64,000 bases of DNA from Allocoprobacillus halotolerans (GTDB lineage: Bacteria; Bacillota_I; Bacilli_A; Erysipelotrichales; Coprobacillaceae), in assembly GCF_024399475.1 (NCBI RefSeq), contig NZ_CP101620.1, positions 124,001-188,000 of the forward strand, given 5' to 3'. Positions 4,642 through 23,822 of the stretch are shown here, one piece after another. Made by a program: the position numbers and the translations under genes. Position 1 is the stretch's first letter. Every line of letters starts with the position of its first letter. The notes under the pieces are model-generated. The model saw only the letters and a list, made by a program, of their open reading frames with translations. It was not told the origin of the DNA and did no database searches.

Positions 4642-5262
4642 TTATTTAGCTCCAACCAATTCGTTTTCTTGTTCTTCTTGTGATAAAACTTCTTCTAAAA
4701 TTTTATTTGTTGGTAATAAATAAATCAACATATCATCTTTTTTCTTAAATAATTGAAATCCAAATTTCTCATAATATCTTTTAAGATTTTCATCATCTTT
4801 GCAGTCAACATGCGTAACTACACTAGGGAAAATCATATGTATATCTTTAATCCTTGAAAAAACTAAGCTCATTAAGATATCTCCAGTTATATATTCATTA
4901 TAACCATTTGTATAATTTTTGGCTAGCTGCCCAATTAACAAAGTTTTTATATTTTTTCCTATAGGATACGTTGTCCCAAACAATTTCTTTCTATGTCTAG
5001 ATTTTAAAGAATCACTTAACTCAACATTACTTTGACCTAACGCATATACAGCGACTAAATATGTTTTTCCATATGATGGTTGTGCATATACAAGATAGGT
5101 TCTAGCCAATCCAACTCTTTCAAATTCATAAGCTTTATAGTGAATAAAATATTCAACATCAGGATTTAAAGGACAAGAAAAATCGGAAAGAATTTTCATT
5201 ATTTCATCCTTTCCGATTTTTTGATTAATCATATCATATAAGGATATAGTTCTATATATCAT
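4642..5262 (-). CDS. GNAT acetyltransferase toxin of a type II toxin-antitoxin pair
   Basis: A 206-residue GNAT-fold protein. The acetyl-CoA loop region reads IGQLAKNYTNGYNEYITGDI and the C-terminal core reads DDENLKRYYEKFGFQLF, which is typical of the fold. The N-terminal half (VEYFIHYKAYEFERVGLARTY) resembles Firmicutes GNAT toxins that acetylate charged tRNA. Its ATG overlaps the stop codon of a small basic gene upstream (ATGATATATAG), the usual antitoxin-toxin layout. No other function in the phage late region is suggested. The toxic activity is inferred from context and family style. Confidence 0.7.
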   Translation of the reverse strand: MIYRTISLYDMINQKIGKDEIMKILSDFSCPLNPDVEYFIHYKAYEFERVGLARTYLVYAQPSYGKTYLVAVYALGQSNVELSDSLKSRHRKKLFGTTYPIGKNIKTLLIGQLAKNYTNGYNEYITGDILMSLVFSRIKDIHMIFPSVVTHVDCKDDENLKRYYEKFGFQLFKKKDDMLIYLLPTNKILEEVLSQEEQENELVGAK

Positions 5263-5428
5263 TTTTATTAATTCCTAACATGTTTAAAATAGCTTTTTTC
5301 CCTTTAACATCTTGATGACCAATCACTTTTTTTGTTTTTACTTTTTTTGTTTTGTTCATGATATTATGGAATCTATTAACATCTGAACGTTCGATTACAT
5401 AAGTATCAGTGAAACTTTTTGTTGCCAT
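5252..5428 (-). CDS. Small antitoxin partner of the GNAT toxin
   Basis: A 58-residue protein starting MATKSFTDTYVIERSDVNRF with a Lys-rich middle and the tail KKAILNMLGINKND. MATKSFT-type small proteins commonly precede GNAT toxins in Firmicutes. They combine an N-terminal DNA-binding strand with a C-terminal toxin-neutralising segment. The ATG follows GGAGGAGATATT. The gene overlaps the toxin start by 11 bp. It would neutralise the toxin and autorepress the operon. The assignment rests on context and N-terminal similarity recalled from memory. Confidence 0.65.
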   Translation of the reverse strand: MATKSFTDTYVIERSDVNRFHNIMNKTKKVKTKKVIGHQDVKGKKAILNMLGINKNDI

Positions 5429-5530
5429 AATATCTCCTCCTTCTAGTATAGATAACTTCTATACGTATGTATTGTACCATAAGTCATATAATAATATCCA
5501 TACTTTGTCAATATATTTTTTATTTTTTTA

Positions 5531-5893
5531 CTATCTAGCCAGATATCCATATATAGCTTTTCTAATGAGTCTTTTCACATGAACAGAAGAGAAATGAACT
5601 TTATTACCAATTGCCGTATAACTTTGCTTTTCTATATACCTTTCATAGATTAGCACCTTATCAATACCTATAAAATTTTTTTCAATAAACTGTTCTATTT
5701 CTTTCTGTTGCTCCCTGCATTCTTCAATCTTCTGCATGTATACCAGCATCATATCATCCTGTGCTGTGCCTTTTTCTTCCTGAGAATAAGAAATGGCCTT
5801 CAGTCCACCCATCTTGTTCTCATACAGAATTATATCGTATCTAAGGCTTTGATATTTTTTTAGATAGTTTTCAACCTTTTCATACGAATCCAT
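5531..5893 (-). CDS. RinA/ArpU-like phage transcriptional regulator (DUF1492-type)
   Basis: A 120-residue protein with an N-terminal coiled coil (residues 1-70) and a C-terminal sigma-70 region 4-like HTH (VLIYERYIEKQSYTAIGNKVHFSSVHVKRLIRKAI). Proteins of this kind activate late phage transcription or packaging genes. It sits at the boundary between early and late genes, immediately before packaging genes in transcription order, as expected for that role. Confidence 0.75.
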   Translation of the reverse strand: MDSYEKVENYLKKYQSLRYDIILYENKMGGLKAISYSQEEKGTAQDDMMLVYMQKIEECREQQKEIEQFIEKNFIGIDKVLIYERYIEKQSYTAIGNKVHFSSVHVKRLIRKAIYGYLAR

Positions 5894-5896
5894 TTC

Positions 5897-6013
5897 CTAG
5901 TCCTCCTGATCAGCACGTCTAATATCTGCATAAACAATAATCCCACCAACAACCAGCAGTGCTGTTTCTAGCATTCCAAGTCCTGCGAAGAAATTAATAA
6001 GCCAGTTAGGCAT
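5897..6013 (-). CDS. Small single-pass membrane protein
   Basis: A 38-residue protein: a short amphipathic start (MPNWLINFFAGLGM), one hydrophobic segment (LETALLVVGGIIVYA) and a charged tail (DIRRADQED). The ATG follows GAGAGGAG with eight bases between. It is embedded in a chain of overlapping small phage genes. Function unknown. Confidence 0.6.
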   Translation of the reverse strand: MPNWLINFFAGLGMLETALLVVGGIIVYADIRRADQED

Positions 6014-6027
6014 AGTCACAACTCCTC

Positions 6028-6162
6028 TCATAATAAATTTTTCAACATTAATTCAAGCTTCTTTATGTATTTATCTATAATCAGCTGCGTACAAGGAAGC
6101 TGAACGAATTCTCTTTGCTGATACAAATCAATGAGCTGTTTCATCAAATCTTGTTTATTCAT
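6028..6162 (-). CDS. Small phage protein, unknown function
   Basis: A 44-residue protein (MNKQDLMKQLIDLYQQREFV start), predicted helical. Its ATG overlaps the stop of the upstream gene (AAAATGA), so it is translated by coupling. No family recognised. Confidence 0.55.
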   Translation of the reverse strand: MNKQDLMKQLIDLYQQREFVQLPCTQLIIDKYIKKLELMLKNLL

Positions 6163-6455
6163 TTTAACAACTCGCTTTCTTCAACCTTTTCATAAGTTTT
6201 TTCGAATATATCTGGTTTACATGGATATATTTCGCCATTTATTCCTTTTATGATGTAATCATTTCTACTTGCTTTCATATCACCTTCGAGAGTATGTATA
6301 ATAAGTTCTTCATGTGGAACTCCTTTTCCGACTTGCCACGCAGAATCATTTACGTTATACGAGCATTTGCTGCCACAAAACTTCTTTACTTCGCTTGTGT
6401 TTCCTGTCCATTGAATAGCTTCAACTTCTACTGGTTTCTTTCTATACTTCATCAT
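6159..6455 (-). CDS. Conserved phage protein (KYRKKPVEVEAIQW family)
   Basis: A 98-residue protein opening with MMKYRKKPVEVEAIQWTGN and ending with NGEIYPCKPDIFEKTYEKVE. This pair of signatures is common to small conserved proteins of siphophages of low-GC Gram-positives. Function is not established. Start: either of two adjacent ATGs after GGAAGTGAAAG. It is part of a run of overlapping early genes. Confidence 0.7.
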   Translation of the reverse strand: MMKYRKKPVEVEAIQWTGNTSEVKKFCGSKCSYNVNDSAWQVGKGVPHEELIIHTLEGDMKASRNDYIIKGINGEIYPCKPDIFEKTYEKVEESELLK

Positions 6456-6458
6456 CTT

Positions 6459-6626
6459 TCACTTCCTTTTCTTCTCTAAATATTCACAAATCATTTCATA
6501 AATTGGCATAATCAGTAATTCATATAAAATCAAACAACCTGCAAATATAAAAGCAATTGTAACAATACCCCATACAATCCATATAATAATTATCAAAGAA
6601 TAAAATGTTGTATATAATTCTGTCAT
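6459..6626 (-). CDS. Small membrane protein
   Basis: A 55-residue protein with one long hydrophobic stretch (SLIIIIWIVWGIVTIAFIFA, then GCLILYELLIM) and a basic C-terminal end (EKKRK). The ATG overlaps the upstream stop (GAATGACA). Function unknown. It would lie in the inner face of the membrane if expressed. Confidence 0.55.
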   Translation of the reverse strand: MTELYTTFYSLIIIIWIVWGIVTIAFIFAGCLILYELLIMPIYEMICEYLEKKRK

Positions 6627-6973
6627 TCTTGATACTCCATAGCCTTTGTAACTGGGAAGAAACGTCCTTCTTCAAACACTGTTCTTAAAAATGTTAAATC
6701 ACCATTTTCAAACTCAATATCAATTTCACTATTCACGCTTTTTATTTTGAAAATCCATTCTGAATTATCATCCCAAACCCACATATTAGGTTTTAAATCT
6801 TCAAATTTGTATGGTTGATGATTAAATACGTATTGAATCAAACCATCAATTATATCTACATATTTATCTAAATCTTCGCCTGTTATGCAATCGGTTCCAA
6901 AAGTGTTATCCCATAATTTACTTAATGCAGTTTCACATTCTTCTTTAGTCAACATCTTCATCACTCCAATCAT
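6623..6973 (-). CDS. Hypothetical phage protein
   Basis: 116 residues, acidic. The C-terminal half (FEDLKPNMWVWDDNSEWIFKIKSV...IEFENGDLTFLRTVFEEGRFFPV) looks like a small beta-barrel, seen in other phage early proteins of unknown role. ATG candidates are at residues 1, 5 and 7, and the true start is uncertain. No catalytic motif seen. Confidence 0.55.
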   Translation of the reverse strand: MIGVMKMLTKEECETALSKLWDNTFGTDCITGEDLDKYVDIIDGLIQYVFNHQPYKFEDLKPNMWVWDDNSEWIFKIKSVNSEIDIEFENGDLTFLRTVFEEGRFFPVTKAMEYQE

Positions 6974-6979
6974 AAATTC

Positions 6980-7422
6980 TTAACCTTTCTTAACAAACAG
7001 CTCACCATTCTCACTTAAACATATGATCAATCGTTCCTGCTCATCATAATGTCTTATCACATGTATCTCATTGACCTGCGTATCGTCGTGATAAGCAACC
7101 TTATTCAAGGCATCCAGCACGACCTTGACCACATTATCTACGTCAGGTTTCTTTTTGGATTAAAAGCATTGCTCAACTTCAAAGCCTTATTTTTCTTTGT
7201 ATCACTCTTGTTTGGAGAAAAGCACACATACATGCTCATTCGTATGCTTTTATCAGAGATGTAATTTGTGTGCTTTAGGTAGCTGTTTTTAATCAGTTTT
7301 TCATATTCAACAGTTTTCTTATCTGTATAGGCAATACCCATTCTTGTAAATCTCGGCCTTCCCTTTCCACGGACACCTGGAACTTCAAAGATGAGTCCAC
7401 TCTCAGGCCATTGGGTCGCCAT
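6980..7422 (-). CDS. rusA: RusA-type Holliday junction resolvase (one-base shift)
   Basis: The N-terminal part (GLIFEVPGVRGKGRPRFTRMG) and the C-terminal part (PDVDNVVKVVLDALNKVAYHDDTQV) together form the RusA fold. They contain the conserved KPDxDN...DALN...DD catalytic acid pattern that cuts four-way junctions before packaging. The two parts are in different frames, broken at a five-T run (7152-7156). One more base gives NPKKKPDVDNVV and a 147-residue protein of normal length. The start ATG 7422 (MATQWPESG) lies inside the end of the preceding gene. Confidence 0.88.
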
Positions 7423-8053
7423 ATTCCTCGTCCTCGAATTCTTCAGGAGGTTCTTCAAATGACTCTTCTCGATTTTCCACATATGCTTCAATCTTCATCT
7501 GTGAACTGTCATTTTCATTAGGTACAACGGCAAATGCAGTAAAGATCAAAGAAATTTTAGACAGATCATCTTCTGTTTCAAATCTCAAATAATCATAGCC
7601 ATTATGAACATTGAATATATCAAACATTTTAAGATACCCGACATCATCATCACTGATCCATTTTCCTGTTACGGATGCTATTTTTGCTATCTTCTTGGTG
7701 TAGTGCTTATCCATCTCATCAACCCAGCTATCATCCATTCTACCCTCTACATAGGAAACAATATTATCTCTTGTTCTGGCATTGCTCAACGCATCACCTT
7801 CCACTTTATCAAGCACAAAAGATTTGTTGGGCAGTTGTTTCAGCTGATAGATGCACTTGTCAAAATCATATGCATCAATCAGTCTGTCTATATTTTCTAA
7901 TGATTCATATACACCACAATAACCAGGTGCATAGAAATATAATTTATCAAGCAATCCTGCAACATATGTTCTTTCATCTGTCTTTCCAAAAATCTTGTTA
8001 ACACAATCAAGAAACTTGTACAGTTGTCTTTCTTCTCTTGTTATCTTCATCAT
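7403..8053 (-). CDS. Hypothetical acidic protein at the end of the ubiquitin-like cassette
   Basis: 216 residues, strongly acidic at the C-terminus (residues 190-216). The tail EEYGDPMA ends with the same four residues as the phage RecT (DDDPMA). No JAB/MPN metalloprotease motif (EhxxH, SxxD) is present, so it is not an obvious deconjugating peptidase. It follows the E2-like gene by 5 bp and overlaps RusA, so it is cotranscribed with both. The role may lie with the conjugation cassette or with recombination. I do not recognise the family. Confidence 0.6.
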   Translation of the reverse strand: MMKITREERQLYKFLDCVNKIFGKTDERTYVAGLLDKLYFYAPGYCGVYESLENIDRLIDAYDFDKCIYQLKQLPNKSFVLDKVEGDALSNARTRDNIVSYVEGRMDDSWVDEMDKHYTKKIAKIASVTGKWISDDDVGYLKMFDIFNVHNGYDYLRFETEDDLSKISLIFTAFAVVPNENDSSQMKIEAYVENREESFEEPPEEFEDEEYGDPMA

Positions 8054-8058
8054 CGCTT

Positions 8059-8712
8059 CTATCCTTTCAGTACATCTTTTAGTTTTTTATTCAATGGTTT
8101 CATGAGCTTGTATGGAAATTCATTGGACTCAAGATATTCAAAATAGGTCTTTGTTATAGAAAATCCGTTCATTCCACTGAATGTTGAATGGGAATAAGGT
8201 GTAAATATGATTCTCTCCAGCGCTCCAACAATATCTTTGTCAATAATCTTACGTTCAGCGTTTCCAATGCACATCTTATTGCCAGAAAGTTCATTCGGCA
8301 TCGGATATTCATAGAGTTCTGTTTCTTCAGCTTTGTATTCCTTGTAAGAGTAGCACTCTATACTGCCAACTTTTTCATGAGAAAAATAAACAATGTATAT
8401 GGCATTTGGGAAATTGATATTGTATACAAGCATATTGCCACTGCTACTTTCAGCATAATTGACAATTCTTTTCTTTTCCTCCTGCTTGATGACTGTATAG
8501 TGTTCGTCAATGGCAATGATCTGTGGATTCAACAAAATAATATTTTTTGTTGGAACATACTTTTCAGCTTTCCTTTCAAACGATTTTCTGATGATCTTGC
8601 AGAATTCCTGAGTTTCAATTTTCTTGAAAACCAGTTCATTTCTGCCATGGTCTTTGAATGCAATTTCAACTGCATTACTTTCTGAAGTAATTCGTGCAAT
8701 CAATTCCGTCAT
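8059..8712 (-). CDS. E2-like protein (PRTRC protein B / Prok-E2_D type)
   Basis: With the start at ATG 8712 (GAGGTGATTCT before it) the protein has 217 residues. An extra 11 codons upstream lack a ribosome site. The C-terminal half has the pattern of PRTRC protein B: EYPMPNELSGNKMCIGNAER, then FTPYSHSTFSG, then FPYKLMKPLNKKLKDVL. In E2-like folds this region carries the ubiquitin-accepting Cys. The candidate here is Cys148 of KMCIG. The ATG overlaps the stop of the upstream companion gene (CTATGA). Together with the adjacent E1 and Ub-like genes it should accept the Ub-like protein and pass it to targets. Assignment by motif, not by search. Confidence 0.7.
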   Translation of the reverse strand: MTELIARITSESNAVEIAFKDHGRNELVFKKIETQEFCKIIRKSFERKAEKYVPTKNIILLNPQIIAIDEHYTVIKQEEKKRIVNYAESSSGNMLVYNINFPNAIYIVYFSHEKVGSIECYSYKEYKAEETELYEYPMPNELSGNKMCIGNAERKIIDKDIVGALERIIFTPYSHSTFSGMNGFSITKTYFEYLESNEFPYKLMKPLNKKLKDVLKG

Positions 8713-9626
8713 AGAATCACCTCGCCACCCGGTGCTGCATGACATTCCAAAATTTTGGAAAATAAATAGCTGTTATAGTCATCCTCTCGAGAATAATACA
8801 AATAATCATTCATGTTAGCTAAAGCTCTCTTGAATGACAGACTTTCTTGATTGGTATCCTTGATTCCAAATATTTCAATAAGTGCCTTCATGCCATCATA
8901 GACTGTATCCATATCGAAAAATCCGTTATAAGCAACTGCTTCAATATTGTAATTTTCAGCAAATACAAATTCTCCATTGACCATGTAGTACTTGAGCTCA
9001 TTAAACATCAATCTTACACGTAAATTCTTTGCGTAAGCCTTTCTTAGCTTTCTGGCATAGGATTTATTTTTCAGCCTTACATATGAAACATTCACTCTTT
9101 CTGTTTCTGCATCATACCCATCAATGTATCCAGAATGATTTGGATCCTCAAAATCTTTAAGACAATCAATTATGAAATCATTAAGATATTTATCAATCTT
9201 TCTGTTTGAGTTGTATGGCTTGTAGTTATCTATGCGATAATGCTCAACATCAATATGGCTACCATCATCCAAAGCAATTGCAAAGTCAAAGTCTTCACAC
9301 TTGACATCAAAATGCATTGTATGCATCACACATGACAGAAGCATTGTAACCAGAACGTTATCATAACTCATGTCAAGTGCATCACCAAGATGCATATCGT
9401 TAAGATAGTTATCCTCATGAAAACCATATTCGTATATGTCAACAAATCCTTCAGGACCGTTATGGACCGCTACTTCTATCTGGTTTTTTATTTCATCATC
9501 AACGGTGAAATCATAAATAAATCGAAGGAAGCAAGTCAGATCATTGTCTTCCATTGCATCAAAATCATAATCATCATCAGTCTGAGTAAAATACTGAACC
9601 AAATCGCTCAACACGCTGAACACCAC
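8709..9626 (-). CDS. Large acidic companion of the ubiquitin-like cassette
   Basis: About 305 residues, with a very acidic N-terminus (TQTDDDYDFDAMEDND) and later a basic helix (KSYARKLRKAYAKNLRVR, about 192-209). It lies between E1 and E2, overlapping E1 by up to 50 bp and E2 by 4 bp. PRTRC cassettes have a protein F in the same neighbourhood, but I cannot show homology. The listed start is GTG 9626. GTG 9614, eight bases after AAAGGTGG, is an equally good start. It could be the target, scaffold or adaptor of the pathway; this is inference from position only. Confidence 0.6.
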   Translation of the reverse strand: MVFSVLSDLVQYFTQTDDDYDFDAMEDNDLTCFLRFIYDFTVDDEIKNQIEVAVHNGPEGFVDIYEYGFHEDNYLNDMHLGDALDMSYDNVLVTMLLSCVMHTMHFDVKCEDFDFAIALDDGSHIDVEHYRIDNYKPYNSNRKIDKYLNDFIIDCLKDFEDPNHSGYIDGYDAETERVNVSYVRLKNKSYARKLRKAYAKNLRVRLMFNELKYYMVNGEFVFAENYNIEAVAYNGFFDMDTVYDGMKALIEIFGIKDTNQESLSFKRALANMNDYLYYSREDDYNSYLFSKILECHAAPGGEVIL

Positions 9627-10266
9627 CTTTCAGCTGTCTCATCAGCAACGCATTACAATGTTCCAAAAGATAGTTGGCCATTTTATTATTCGTAACCAAA
9701 AACTGCACATTTCCCTTTGATGCCTGTACCTCGCAAGATTCATCAAGTGGATGAACATCATCTTCAAGTTTATATGTCTTGCTTCTAAGCGCTCCATAAA
9801 TCTTTCCATCATGAGAATATCTATAGGCAATGAATATGTTTCCTTCATATTCTCCATTTGCCGAATCCAGATAATAGCATCTTTCAAGATTTTCAAACGT
9901 ATATTCGAGTATCTTTCGAGTAGCATCATTATCAACGCAGCCAATAAGGACAGGTGTGTAAAGATAGTTGTTATTGCAGTATTCAAGAATCTCATTTTTT
10001 GTCAGGTAAAGGCCTATAGCTTCACAATGTGTATCATAGAAGGTGTTAATCTTAGCAGACAACGCAATCGACTTATACTCTCCTATATCCTGCTCCTGAT
10101 AGGACTGGCGCTTCATGTTCTTTCTTTCAACACGGTCACCATCTACAAGTAGCATCTTGTGGTCAGTATTGATAAGAAGCTTAGGAAGGTCCCTTGCAAG
10201 AAGAGAACCAGTTCCACCAACTCCAACGATAATGAATACATATCTTTCCCCCATACGATTCATCAC
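9577..10266 (-). CDS. E1-like ThiF/PRTRC-type activating enzyme
   Basis: 229 residues, a single-domain E1. Residues 9-20 (YVFIIVGVGGTG) are the Rossmann ATP-binding loop, followed by LVDGDRVERKNMKRQSY with the conserved D, N and RQ, and VLIGCVDND (about 106-114). The C-terminal part DESCEVQASKGNVQF...NNKMANYLLEH matches the PRTRC ThiF pattern, with Cys178 as the candidate thioester residue. It would adenylate the C-terminal Gly of the Ub-like protein encoded directly upstream. Starts GTG 10266, ATG 10263 (TGATG overlap with the Ub gene stop) and ATG 10254 are possible. The usual zinc-binding CxxC pairs of MoeB/ThiF are absent. Confidence 0.85.
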   Translation of the reverse strand: MMNRMGERYVFIIVGVGGTGSLLARDLPKLLINTDHKMLLVDGDRVERKNMKRQSYQEQDIGEYKSIALSAKINTFYDTHCEAIGLYLTKNEILEYCNNNYLYTPVLIGCVDNDATRKILEYTFENLERCYYLDSANGEYEGNIFIAYRYSHDGKIYGALRSKTYKLEDDVHPLDESCEVQASKGNVQFLVTNNKMANYLLEHCNALLMRQLKGGVQRVERFGSVFYSD

Positions 10267-10658
10267 CCCTTTTTGTATTGCTTTGCAGTCGCAACAAGCG
10301 TATTGTCTTCTTCAAACATCTTGTATGTCATTTCACCAGCAAATTCATAATGACGATGATCAAGCATGATCTGACTAATCTGCTTGTCTGTATATGTTTT
10401 TCCATCTTCAAATCCATAATTGGAAACATCTACAATATGGCCTTCAGTGTAAAGACTAAACGGATAGACATATCCATTTTCTGTAGTAGGTGTTTTAGCT
10501 TTGCTTGAATTGCTCGTCTTAGAATAAATCTTTTTGTCCTGTTTTTGAGCTACAGGCTTCGCCCCAGCAACGTTTTTCTCTTTTTCGACCTGTTTATCAT
10601 CTTTTGTGTTTTTCTGCTCCTGCTGCATCATTTTAATAAAATCAATTGCCATTTTCAT
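10263..10658 (-). CDS. Ubiquitin-like beta-grasp protein (PRTRC protein C-like)
   Basis: 131 residues. Residues 1-60 are a charged, probably disordered extension. Residues 62-131 form a compact domain (YVYPFSLYTEGHIVDVSNYG...YTDKQISQIMLDH...GEMTYKMFEEDNTLVATAKQYKKG) with the strand-helix-strand layout of PRTRC protein C/Prok_Ub. It ends exactly in Gly131, as needed for adenylation by the E1 encoded next. The stop overlaps the E1 start. The gene overlaps the helicase-loader gene by 17 bp, placing the cassette in the early operon. The beta-grasp assignment is by pattern and context. Confidence 0.68.
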   Translation of the reverse strand: MKMAIDFIKMMQQEQKNTKDDKQVEKEKNVAGAKPVAQKQDKKIYSKTSNSSKAKTPTTENGYVYPFSLYTEGHIVDVSNYGFEDGKTYTDKQISQIMLDHRHYEFAGEMTYKMFEEDNTLVATAKQYKKG

Positions 10659-11160
10659 TTCCCCTTTCTTTTTCCTTTAGCTTCATAGCAAAGTATTCTG
10701 TTCTTTTTCTTTTCTCAAATTCATCGCGGTCAGACTGATTTATATAAATTGCTTCTGCAAATGGTGCATACAATCTTGTGTTTTGTTCATGGCATAGCAT
10801 AATGTCTTCCCTGCTTGGATTGCCTCTCAATATCTCAATCAGCTTCATTGCTTCATCTTTCGTCTTGAACTTGAATGGTATCAGCTGATCATGAAAACGA
10901 ACATGAATGATTATGCAATCCTTTCTGACCATCTTTTCGACTATGAATGATTTATCAACCTCTTCAAGTATTTCATGAATGGATGGAACATACTTGCTCT
11001 TTTTGACCAATCTCTTGATGGATAACAGGACTTCATTCTTTGAATACTCGTCAAACATGATTTGCCAGGTAGCAATCGTTTCATCACTGTCATCAATCTT
11101 TCGTCCTTGATAGACAGTCTTCATGAAATTTAGAATTTCCAAAATTTCAGTTTTTTCCAA
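10642..11160 (-). CDS. Replicative helicase loader/inhibitor (G39P-like)
   Basis: 172 residues. The N-terminal 65 residues (EILEILNFMKTVYQG...TWQIMFDEYSKNEVLLSIKRLVKKSKYVPSIHEILEEV) have the helical layout of the SPP1 G39P helicase-loader family, which delivers DnaB-type helicase to the phage origin. The C-terminal part is charged and likely flexible. The start appears to be TTG 11160, downstream of GGGGG. It lies just downstream of the iteron repeats in transcription order, consistent with a replication role. Confidence 0.65.
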   Translation of the reverse strand: MEKTEILEILNFMKTVYQGRKIDDSDETIATWQIMFDEYSKNEVLLSIKRLVKKSKYVPSIHEILEEVDKSFIVEKMVRKDCIIIHVRFHDQLIPFKFKTKDEAMKLIEILRGNPSREDIMLCHEQNTRLYAPFAEAIYINQSDRDEFEKRKRTEYFAMKLKEKERGNENGN

Positions 11161-12144: not shown

Positions 12145-13092
12145 CTATGCCATTGGATCATCATCTAATGATTCCATAACAGGTTCTTTTGCAAACTGAT
12201 TAACACCAATTGTTGGACCAACAGTTTCTTCAATCTGCTGTGGCTCTTCAGGAGTTACTGTTTCGTTATCGATGACATCTGGATTATCAACATATGATGG
12301 CTGTAATTCTTCATTGATAACAGCCTGATCAGCTTCAATGGCCTTTTGCATTTCCGTTGACAATAAAGCGTGCTTTGACAATAACTGTCTTAGCATTGTC
12401 TTTTTGGCCATCTCATCAAAGTTCTTGTACCAGAAAGAAGAATATTTCCATAATTCGTTCTGTGGAATTTTTCCTGCCTGAAGTTCTTCTAACTTTTTCG
12501 CGCTGAATGCCTGAGAATACTCATCTGCATGTTTGATCATCTTTTCCTTAGACCAGTATAAACGTTTGATATATCCATTCTTCATCTCAAAATAGGCCAT
12601 ATAGCCAACAACAGGAAGATTTTCTCTAACAGCATCATCATCTACAAATTCGAATTCCGGCTTACCAGTGAGGCGATTACGTCCCTTGTATTCTCCTTCA
12701 CGAATTTCAATAGCATCAATGTCAACATACTCTCCTGTTCTAATGGCCAACTGAAGATAGCCTTTATAACCAATCTGGAACTGCGCTTCCTTGCAGCCTT
12801 TCTTTTTATTATTAAAAGGAACCATATAGAAATATCCCAATTGAGGGCTTGGCTTAAGATGTAAGCTTTGCCCCAATAATGCTGCACTGATGATTGATTG
12901 TGAGTCACATTCAGCAAGTGTTGGATTGTTATTGACTGCACTTGTAATGGATGTAATGAACTCCTGTGCATCTGTTCTACCAACCATCTGATAGATCTTT
13001 GTTCGCATGATATTTGATTGAATAAGATTATTAAATGCCTTTATTCCATTTTTAGGTGCACTCTTTGCTTTTGTTAAATTATTCTGTACCAT
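12145..13092 (-). CDS. recT: RecT single-strand annealing recombinase
   Basis: 315 residues. Recognised by the RecT core (SIISAALLGQSLHLKPSPQLGYFYMVPF, then EAQFQIGYKGYLQLAIRTGEYVDI, residues about 64-136). It binds ssDNA made by the phage exonuclease and anneals homologous strands. The last 60 residues are acidic and flexible, ending ESLDDDPMA. The DPMA end recurs in the 216-residue protein at 7403-8053. An AGGAGG site precedes the ATG. It works with the YqaJ-type exonuclease at 14896-15579. Confidence 0.93.
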   Translation of the reverse strand: MVQNNLTKAKSAPKNGIKAFNNLIQSNIMRTKIYQMVGRTDAQEFITSITSAVNNNPTLAECDSQSIISAALLGQSLHLKPSPQLGYFYMVPFNNKKKGCKEAQFQIGYKGYLQLAIRTGEYVDIDAIEIREGEYKGRNRLTGKPEFEFVDDDAVRENLPVVGYMAYFEMKNGYIKRLYWSKEKMIKHADEYSQAFSAKKLEELQAGKIPQNELWKYSSFWYKNFDEMAKKTMLRQLLSKHALLSTEMQKAIEADQAVINEELQPSYVDNPDVIDNETVTPEEPQQIEETVGPTIGVNQFAKEPVMESLDDDPMA

Positions 13093-20145: not shown

Positions 20146-21246
20146 ATGAGCATTAGAAAAAGAGAAAGCAAGAAAGCAAAGAATGGATATGTTTTTGAAG
20201 TATTTATAAAATATGTAGACTATGCAGGAAACAAGAAAAGAATATCTAAGAGCGATTTCTTACAAAAAAGGAAGCTCAAATCTATGAAGCTGAAAAAAGA
20301 AAGAAATCAGCGAAAACATCAATATAAAGACCAAGAAATATACTTTTAATGATATTTTCAATCTCTATATAAATAATGATCCATTTACAAAGGACTCAAC
20401 CAAATATTGCAGATTGTCTACTTACAATAAACATCTAAAAAATACGCTAGGTCCCTGTGACATATCTAAATTGGATTATGAGTATATTCAAAACTTCTTC
20501 AATGAAAAAGCAAAGACTGAAACAAAAACATTGATAGAAAACATATACAGAGTTGTTAATGGAGTTTTTACGTATGCATATAATAATAACTATATAATAA
20601 GGAAACCATATGTAAAGCTTAAACTAAATGGCTTAAAAACTTTGAAAAAGAAAAATACAATCACAATAGATGAGTTTAAACAATTTATAGATAACTATAG
20701 TCATCCAAATATAAACAAAAAAGTTGAATATGATAATTATATTGTTGCACTATATATTGGACTATATACTGGTATTCGTTTAGGTGAATGCCTGGGAATA
20801 AAAAAGAAGATGTGGATATGATCAACAGAAACATTTCAATTAACAAGCAGCTTCAGATCATAGGAAGTGACATAAGAATATCTGAATTGAAAACAAATTC
20901 AAGTTACAGAAAAGTTCCAATATCGAATGAACTGTATGAAATTTTAAAAGAGCATTTTAAAAAGTATCCTGAAAGTGAGTTTGTCATATGTGATAAAGAT
21001 ATGGGATGTATGTCACCAAGAAAGATACAGAAATCAATACAAAGAGCTTCTCAAAAGCTTAACATTGATTTTCACTATCACATGCTTAGACATACCTTCA
21101 TCACCCAGTTGTATAACAATGGGGTCGATATAAAAGTAACACAATTGTTAGCTGGTCATTCTAGCTATAAAACAACCGCTGATATTTACACAGAATTAGA
21201 CAATGAAAAGACAAGTAATTTTCAGACAACCAATCTTTATAATTAA
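20146..21246 (+). CDS. int: Tyrosine integrase of the prophage, broken by three shifts
   Basis: Rejoined, 367 residues. These comprise an N-terminal AP2-like DNA-binding region (MSIRKRESKKAKNGYVFEVF), an SAM-like core-binding domain (about 60-160) and a catalytic domain with TGIRLGE (Arg), HMLRHTF (HxxR), LLAGHSS (His) and DIYTEL (nucleophile Tyr). Breaks lie in A runs 20264-20269, 20293-20298 and 20800-20805. Each is repaired by one added base and gives the expected family length. It points toward the attachment region, as usual for the end of a prophage. Confidence 0.9.
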
Positions 21247-22862: not shown

Positions 22863-23822
22863 ATGAACAAATTTGATTTAGGACTTCCTAAATTTGAAGA
22901 TACTCTTTTCTCCACTGAGGAACAAAGACAGGAAGCCAGACTTGAAAAGGTCATGAAAATTCCTATCAGTGAAATTCATGACTTCAAACAGCATCCTTTT
23001 CATGTCCGTATGGACGAGGACATGGTAAAACTGATTGACAGCGTAAAAGAAAATGGTGTCTTAATGCCTGCTCTTGTCAGACCAGATAAAAATGGTGGAT
23101 ATGAGATGGTATCAGGGCACAGGAGAAAATTTGCGTTAGAGCAAAATGGGATAACGGAAATCGACGCTATTGTAAGAGAACTTGATGACGACCAAGCAAC
23201 CATCATCATGGTTGATAGCAATATTCAACGTGAGCATATTCTGCCAACTGAACGTGGATTTGCCTATCGTATGAAATTAGAAGCAATGAAACATCAAGGA
23301 AAACGTAATGATTTAACTTCGTCCCAAGTTGGGACAAAGTTAAAAAGAGCCGATGATATGTTGGCTGAACAGGTTGGAGAAAGTAGAAATCAAATTCAAC
23401 GATTTATTCGATTAACATACTTGGTTAAAGAATTAAGAAATATGGTTGATGAAATTCATGAAGATGGATTTACTATCGCATTGAATCCAGCCTATGAACT
23501 ATCATTTCTTCAAATCAAGGAACAAAACGAACTCGTTGAAGTCATCAAGGAAACTTTAGCTACCCCTAGTCTTGCTCAGGCTCAGGAATTGAAACGTAAA
23601 AGTCAAAATGAAGAGTTATCTAAAGATATGATGATGGATATGTTACTGGCGGACAAGCCAAACCAAAAGGAAAAAATAAGTCTCAAGATGGAGGAAATTA
23701 ATAAATATTTTCCAAAATCCTATACACCTAACCAAAAAAAGGAGATTATTCTCAAATTATTGGGTGAATGGCATAAAAAAGAGAAAGAGAACATTCTAGA
23801 TAATTTATATTCACACATGTGA
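22863..23822 (+). CDS. parB: ParB partition protein
   Basis: 319 residues. The N-terminal ParB/sulfiredoxin-like domain shows IPISEIHDFKQHPF and the GHRR box (SGHRRKFAL). The central HTH is LAEQVGESRNQIQRFIRLTYLVKE. It binds the centromere repeats and loads ParA. Same operon as parA. The C-terminal 70 residues are charged. Confidence 0.93.
   Translation: MNKFDLGLPKFEDTLFSTEEQRQEARLEKVMKIPISEIHDFKQHPFHVRMDEDMVKLIDSVKENGVLMPALVRPDKNGGYEMVSGHRRKFALEQNGITEIDAIVRELDDDQATIIMVDSNIQREHILPTERGFAYRMKLEAMKHQGKRNDLTSSQVGTKLKRADDMLAEQVGESRNQIQRFIRLTYLVKELRNMVDEIHEDGFTIALNPAYELSFLQIKEQNELVEVIKETLATPSLAQAQELKRKSQNEELSKDMMMDMLLADKPNQKEKISLKMEEINKYFPKSYTPNQKKEIILKLLGEWHKKEKENILDNLYSHM

Follow-up and report, generated by a model that had tools for sequence, protein, structure and literature searches.

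A predicted ubiquitin-like conjugation cassette in a prophage of Allocoprobacillus halotolerans and its possible link to the replication fork

Bacterial E1/E2/ubiquitin-like systems such as Bil and CBASS act in anti-phage defence, the Bil-type host systems tagging phage structural proteins. Another group, the ubiquitin-like operons of the type 6d and PRTRC kind, has been predicted since 2006. In type 6d as defined by Iyer, Burroughs and Aravind 2006 (PMC1779556), a small ubiquitin-like protein with a terminal Gly is found with an activating enzyme (E1), a conjugating enzyme (E2) having a Cys plus a conserved downstream His, and a fast-diverging companion, which is largely alpha-helical with conserved charged residues. 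In the PRTRC clusters of large plasmids the gene order is ParB-E-C(Ub)-F-B(E2)-A(JAB)-ThiF, and these cassettes occur together with ParB, SSB, RecA and DNA polymerase genes. In the open-licence literature we found no function for PRTRC/6d operons, and a search of the same literature for a phage ubiquitin/E1/E2 cassette or for clamp tagging in bacteria found neither, which is a weak negative. Here we analyse a four-gene cassette of this kind in a prophage of Allocoprobacillus halotolerans, contained in a window of 64,000 nucleotides (contig NZ_CP101620.1, positions 124,001 to 188,000; all coordinates below are positions in this window). The cassette is intact, under selection and recurrent in phages. 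In one clade of relatives it stands beside a gene that, by profile comparison, encodes a divergent DnaN-like sliding clamp, and we think it probable that it specifies a ubiquitin-like conjugation cascade which acts at the replication fork, perhaps on the sliding clamp.

The cassette comprises four coupled genes of the minus strand, and all four open reading frames (ORFs) put forward in an initial annotation were confirmed: a ubiquitin-like modifier of 131 aa (10263-10658), an E1-like enzyme of 229 aa with the ThiF fold (9577-10266), an acidic companion of 305 aa (8709-9626) and an E2-like enzyme of family D of 217 aa carrying the pattern PMPN...CIG (8059-8712). Successive genes overlap by 4 nt (modifier/E1), 50 nt (E1/companion) and 4 nt (companion/E2), and the modifier gene starts inside the 3' end of the gene just upstream, which encodes a G39P-like helicase loader recognised by family matches (10642-11160, minus strand). 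For the companion, the GTG at 9626, which falls within the E1 gene, is a plausible but not a certain start. The early replication/recombination operon in which the cassette lies also encodes YqaJ, DUF1351, RecT, a DnaD-like loader and RusA. This cassette is real and not a product of chance: more than 20 phage loci show its gene order together with its catalytic residues, and the ratio of non-synonymous to synonymous substitution rates (dN/dS) against a close phage relative lies between 0.04 and 0.13 (modifier 0.12, E1 0.04, companion 0.12, E2 0.13).

The modifier was analysed at the level of fold and of terminus. Its ORF starts with an N-terminal helix (about residues 1-18, 10605-10658, minus strand) of the MAIDFIKMM type, a short motif found in all copies; a disordered linker follows, then a beta-grasp-like domain delimited by AlphaFold and structure alignment (residues 61-131, 10266-10478, minus strand). 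In an AlphaFold model made with 17 phage sequences, about residues 61-126 form a beta-beta-alpha-beta-beta unit with a predicted local distance difference test (pLDDT) of about 95, the rest of the model being the short helix and the linker. VIA-align, an in-house aligner that took in only chains ranked by Foldseek, returned as best rows nearly exclusively ubiquitin, ISG15, SUMO and other ubiquitin-like proteins (Z 3.7-4.6 over 54-62 residues), with modifier residues 65-130 aligned to ubiquitin 1-76. These Z values are modest; it is the consistent identity of the matches that points to a ubiquitin-like domain. Lys130 and Gly131 are invariant in 17 phage rows, and Gly131 (codon 10266-10268, minus strand), the predicted conjugation terminus, is the last residue, as first annotated. 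The Gly codon takes all four third bases across phages (GGG/GGC/GGA/GGT), so the residue is kept at the protein level and not merely through the overlapping ribosome-binding site of the E1 gene. Together with the varying residue before Lys130 (R/A/S), these four codons rule out that the conserved KKG end is a Shine-Dalgarno artefact.

The two enzymes are recognised by curated families. The E1 scores 54.5 bits against Pfam ThiF (PF00899; cut-off 28.1; E-value 1.2e-14), and an alignment of 13 phage rows shows little or no variation in its nucleotide loop (GVGGTG), its pocket residues (D42/D44, N50, R53, Q54, K65, D112) and its predicted catalytic C178. The predicted thioester cysteine, Cys178 (codon 9733-9735, minus strand; HPLDESC), is invariant and lies in an HPxDxSC-like sequence; a P-x-E-x-SC motif is also present in other cassettes (loci L037/L038 and L047). 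The nearest solved relatives of the E1 include UBA5, SAE2, Cap2 and BubCD. In PADLOC the E1 domain matches E1-E2 models and the E2 has no match. The E2 scores 29.0 bits against Pfam Prok-E2_D (PF14460; cut-off 25), and the relatives found are above the cut-off as well. Its Cys148 (codon 8269-8271, minus strand) and the downstream His175 (codon 8188-8190, minus strand), the latter corresponding to the histidine described for type 6d E2s (PMC1779556), are invariant in 14 rows out of 14. Profile-profile comparison, run with reversed controls, links the phage E2s to plasmid PRTRC-type E2s (99.1%, E 1.1e-18) and the phage E1s to their plasmid counterparts (100%). The E1 with GVGGTG and Cys178 and the E2-like protein with Cys148 stand as originally described.

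The companion is always located directly 5' of the E2 gene. It is acidic (58 D/E for 27 K/R) and fast-evolving, with few near-invariant positions only, and hhalign groups the phage companions in one family (96%). Its AlphaFold model is alpha/beta and partly confident (predicted template modelling score 0.75). Fold searches in the PDB and BFVD gave no match for the companion, and neither the companion nor the modifier has a family match at a meaningful E-value in Pfam, NCBIfam or PHROGs. We regard the companion as a possible E3 or adaptor. Its conserved EVI[L/M/F] tail was considered as a functional tail and rejected, because the strong Shine-Dalgarno sequence of the E2 gene (GAGGTGAT, about 8716-8723, minus strand) lies within these last codons and explains the conservation better.

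Taken against the described systems, the cassette is a short phage variant, devoid of JAB peptidase, of the 6d/PRTRC kind; neither the curated cut-offs nor its gene content make it a member of PRTRC proper. The nearest NCBIfam models remain below their cut-offs (PRTRC_ThiF 67.9 versus 144.75 bits, PRTRC_B 28.5 versus 131.45). With the PRTRC clusters of large plasmids it shares E1 and E2 homologous by profile and a companion whose gene immediately precedes that of the E2 (protein B), the place that protein F has there; it differs by lacking ParB, protein A and protein E (the last judged from gene order only), and its modifier and companion show no significant sequence similarity to proteins C and F, respectively. 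With type 6d it shares the small ubiquitin-like protein with terminal Gly, the E1, the E2 Cys with downstream His and the fast-diverging companion. It departs from type 6d by the lack of a JAB gene, by the order Ub-E1-companion-E2, by its presence in temperate phages of Erysipelotrichia and, in one clade, by the addition of a dedicated putative sliding clamp; moreover the phage companion is modelled as alpha/beta, not clearly all-helical like that of type 6d. No JAB or ParB gene is present in the cassette operon, no Prok-JAB match was found in the whole host genome, and a motif scan detected no JAB motif in the window or in the short-cassette phages examined. The initial annotation had proposed precisely such a PRTRC-type cassette of a prophage, lacking JAB and ParB and situated in an early replication operon, and had held that it differs from known cassettes. 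The absence of ParB and protein A stands; however, plasmids of Clostridioides (pESS17301a) and Thermoanaerobacterium (pMU3262) also have an E2-(X)-Ub-E1 arrangement, with no JAB gene found alongside. Their modifiers are N-terminally extended, end in KNKG or QKKG and directly precede the E1, as in the phages, whereas companion and E2 come before Ub-E1, a circular permutation of the phage order, in plasmid-borne and only distantly similar sequences.

Other phages carry larger sets. Complete PRTRC-like sets with tandem ubiquitin-like genes and JAB are found in large/jumbo Bacillus phages. Loci L038, L114, L115 and L116, from large Bacillus phages, have tandem modifiers in 2-4 copies ending in KG, an E2-like protein and an E1, and L038 also has a JAB protein. 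In the crAss-like phage cr128_1 (L039), a JAB protein gene is directly followed by a ThiF E1 gene in the early region, perhaps a further phage system of ubiquitin type. BilABCD, BubCD and the Cap2 of type II CBASS are related by their ubiquitin-like E1/E2 chemistry and the similarity of the E1 domain; they differ by their own E2 families, by gene sets with JAB and by a role in host defence, whereas the phage cassette is in a replication operon.

Distribution was studied in scans of viral contigs and genomes, including 316 genomes of the host's order, of which 11 contain a strong cassette E1. The module was found in two phage clades, and all complete loci, without exception, have the order Ub-E1-companion-E2; this recurrence as a strict block is new to the present analysis, as is the clamp link described below. 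In clade I, to which the window belongs with its relatives, one and the same backbone carries the block at differing points: behind G39P, behind RusA, or in the interval that separates DnaD from the RecT-region genes. Closely similar backbones without the cassette exist (loci L160 and L161), and a related prophage, L159, has a PcfK-like/PcfJ-like pair at the corresponding place (reverse complement of 5194-7117 of that locus). The varying placement and the near relatives devoid of the block indicate an accessory, mobile module. The PcfK-like protein of L159 has an N-terminal leader, MALDFFEMMKQEQ, in common with the phage modifier. A tblastn search with the E2 in the phage collection gave no matches, so annotated phages have no close copies.

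In clade II, the gene directly 5' of the modifier encodes, in every locus, a DnaN-like protein of 321-355 aa. A profile of 10 of these sequences matches the host DnaN (hhalign 97%, E 1.1e-10, 286 columns, score 83), while the control with reversed DnaN scores 23 and is not significant, and the non-DnaN profiles tried reach at most 26. Two members also match PHROG_947 (DNA polymerase processivity factor) at 1.6e-5. Six strong, full-length matches to this profile exist in the 316 genomes and all six are next to a cassette; the weak remaining matches score like host-type DnaN ORFs. These comparisons identify the clade II neighbour as a predicted, divergent DnaN-like sliding clamp, which is not present in the window. 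The association extends to other elements: DnaN adjoins or is near a related cassette on plasmids of Terribacillus, Rossellomorea, Alicyclobacillus, Pseudoalteromonas and Vibrio penaeicida, and also in an unannotated human gut phage. The DnaN query is matched by 307 of 72,556 plasmids. Nine plasmids are among the listed matches for both E1 and DnaN, with distances between the two genes, obtained by subtraction of the listed coordinates, of 1.4, 2.6, 2.7, 2.7, 2.7, 2.7, 4.2, 31 and 64 kb, i.e. within 5 kb in 7 of the 9. In locus L025, a PAPS-reductase-domain gene (5021-6019 of that locus) lies two genes upstream of the clamp-Ub operon.

The surrounding element is a prophage: it has a terminase gene, repressor-type regulators and, left of the window, genes for the major head, minor head, tape measure and endolysin proteins. 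Its integrase, near 20.8 kb (20414-21246), reads as two ORFs that do not share a frame; this may mean that the prophage is locked in, or else it is a sequence error. Just past this remnant a ParB gene of chromosomal type is present (22863-23822), which indicates that the prophage borders a parB locus. Outside the cassette, the replication operon backbone includes p5 (7403-8053, minus strand), a protein of 216 aa with an acidic tail ending in DPMA; every clade I phage whose flanks are intact has it, and so do relatives without the cassette. RecT (12145-13092), a separate gene of the operon, ends in the same acidic ...DPMA tail, and the D-P-M of the p5 tail is invariant in relatives. By analogy with SSB, this tail may be a shared docking tip. 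PDB sequence searches with the modifier, the E2, p5 and the clade II clamp gave no useful matches.

We propose the following scheme for the cassette. The E1 would use ATP to adenylate the modifier at Gly131 and then hold it in thioester linkage on Cys178; from there the modifier would pass to Cys148 of the E2, aided by His175, and the E2, guided by the acidic companion as adaptor or E3, would attach it to a lysine of a protein of the replication fork. The likeliest substrate would be the DNA sliding clamp or a clamp-bound partner, namely the phage's own clamp in clade II, and the host DnaN or another replisome protein in the clade of the window. The fork would thereby be steered toward phage replication. 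As no JAB peptidase accompanies the cassette, the tag would be permanent. Human cells tag PCNA with ubiquitin-like proteins, and the scheme, in which an E1-E2 cascade would mark a sliding clamp to control the fork, resembles eukaryotic ubiquitination and SUMOylation of PCNA by analogy only. On conserved residues and profiles, the genes very probably encode a working E1-E2-Ub cascade. The gene linkage makes the clamp or replisome a serious candidate target, which we nevertheless hold tentatively. The initial annotation had suggested that replication or defence proteins of the host are modified; the gene neighbourhood points to replication, and defence found no support here.

Several observations weigh against this scheme. 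Clamp genes are lacking in the phage clade of the window, and for this clade the clamp hypothesis is an extrapolation from relatives. Five of the 7 close plasmid pairs are from Bacillaceae with one layout, are therefore not independent and count as one lineage, and many plasmid cassettes have no DnaN in the stretch examined. Near relatives can do without the cassette, as the empty backbones L160 and L161 show, and hence it is not essential. Foldseek alone gave no significant match for the modifier. Of the families that the initial annotation had named for comparison, ThiF and Prok-E2_D were matched, while hhalign by sequence was not significant for the modifier with PRTRC_C or for the companion with PRTRC_F, the fold searches being null for the latter as well. 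Finally p5, considered as a hidden sliding clamp, was rejected: when its profile was compared with those of DnaN and the phage clamp, the scores hardly rose above background, if at all, and phages lacking the cassette have p5 too.

Among other explanations, the one that survives best, although we judge it unlikely, is that the clamp link reflects a common origin, with clamp and cassette as usual components of the replication regions of large plasmids and phages, and that the cascade tags something else, for example a segregation or recombination protein. The ParB, SSB, RecA and DNA polymerase genes found with plasmid PRTRC cassettes, not all of which have DnaN, fit such a view; it accounts poorly for a clade II clamp that is immediately 5' of the modifier gene in every locus and nowhere else in the 316 genomes. 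It is improbable that the phage tags and disables host defence proteins, the replication neighbourhood meaning early expression only. The early operon and a presence that varies among close relatives in the manner of accessory genes (L160 and L161 empty, the PcfK/PcfJ pair in L159) would suit counter-defence, but no defence gene was seen near the cassettes and the recurrent partner is the sliding clamp. A role in competition between phages, in which parts of incoming phages or plasmids would be tagged as phage structural proteins are by Bil-type systems, is a little less probable still: it draws on the part of bacterial E1/E2/Ub systems in anti-phage defence and on the PADLOC E1-E2 matches of the E1 domain, and is opposed by a location in the lytic early operon rather than among lysogeny genes, by the lack of JAB and by a gene content other than the Bil set. 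ThiF enzymes also serve sulphur-carrier pathways in metabolism, and the PAPS-reductase-domain gene upstream of the clamp in L025 could recall a ThiS/MoaD or microcin-like small-molecule pathway in place of protein conjugation; this is very unlikely given a dedicated E2 with invariant Cys and His, and family matches that include no ThiG, MoaE or rhodanese partner. That the cassette is a decayed relic without function, as the split integrase might hint, is hardly credible, four intact genes conserved in distant phages with dN/dS well below 1 already contradicting it.

With a cascade acting at the replication fork as the preferred reading, the compact phage version, with the putative clamp as constant partner in one clade, offers a concrete candidate substrate and a small system for reconstitution. 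If true, clamp tagging would explain the role of at least part of the plasmid PRTRC systems. It is conceivable, and we advance it with some doubt, that bacterial mobile elements, in this case temperate phages, carry a dedicated ubiquitin-like system acting on the clamp or on a clamp-bound replisome protein, as an independent bacterial counterpart of PCNA modification that controls whose DNA gets copied. If clamps are indeed tagged, ubiquitin-like modification of the replication clamp would exist in the phage world also, and phages would control the host fork by means of a permanent tag.

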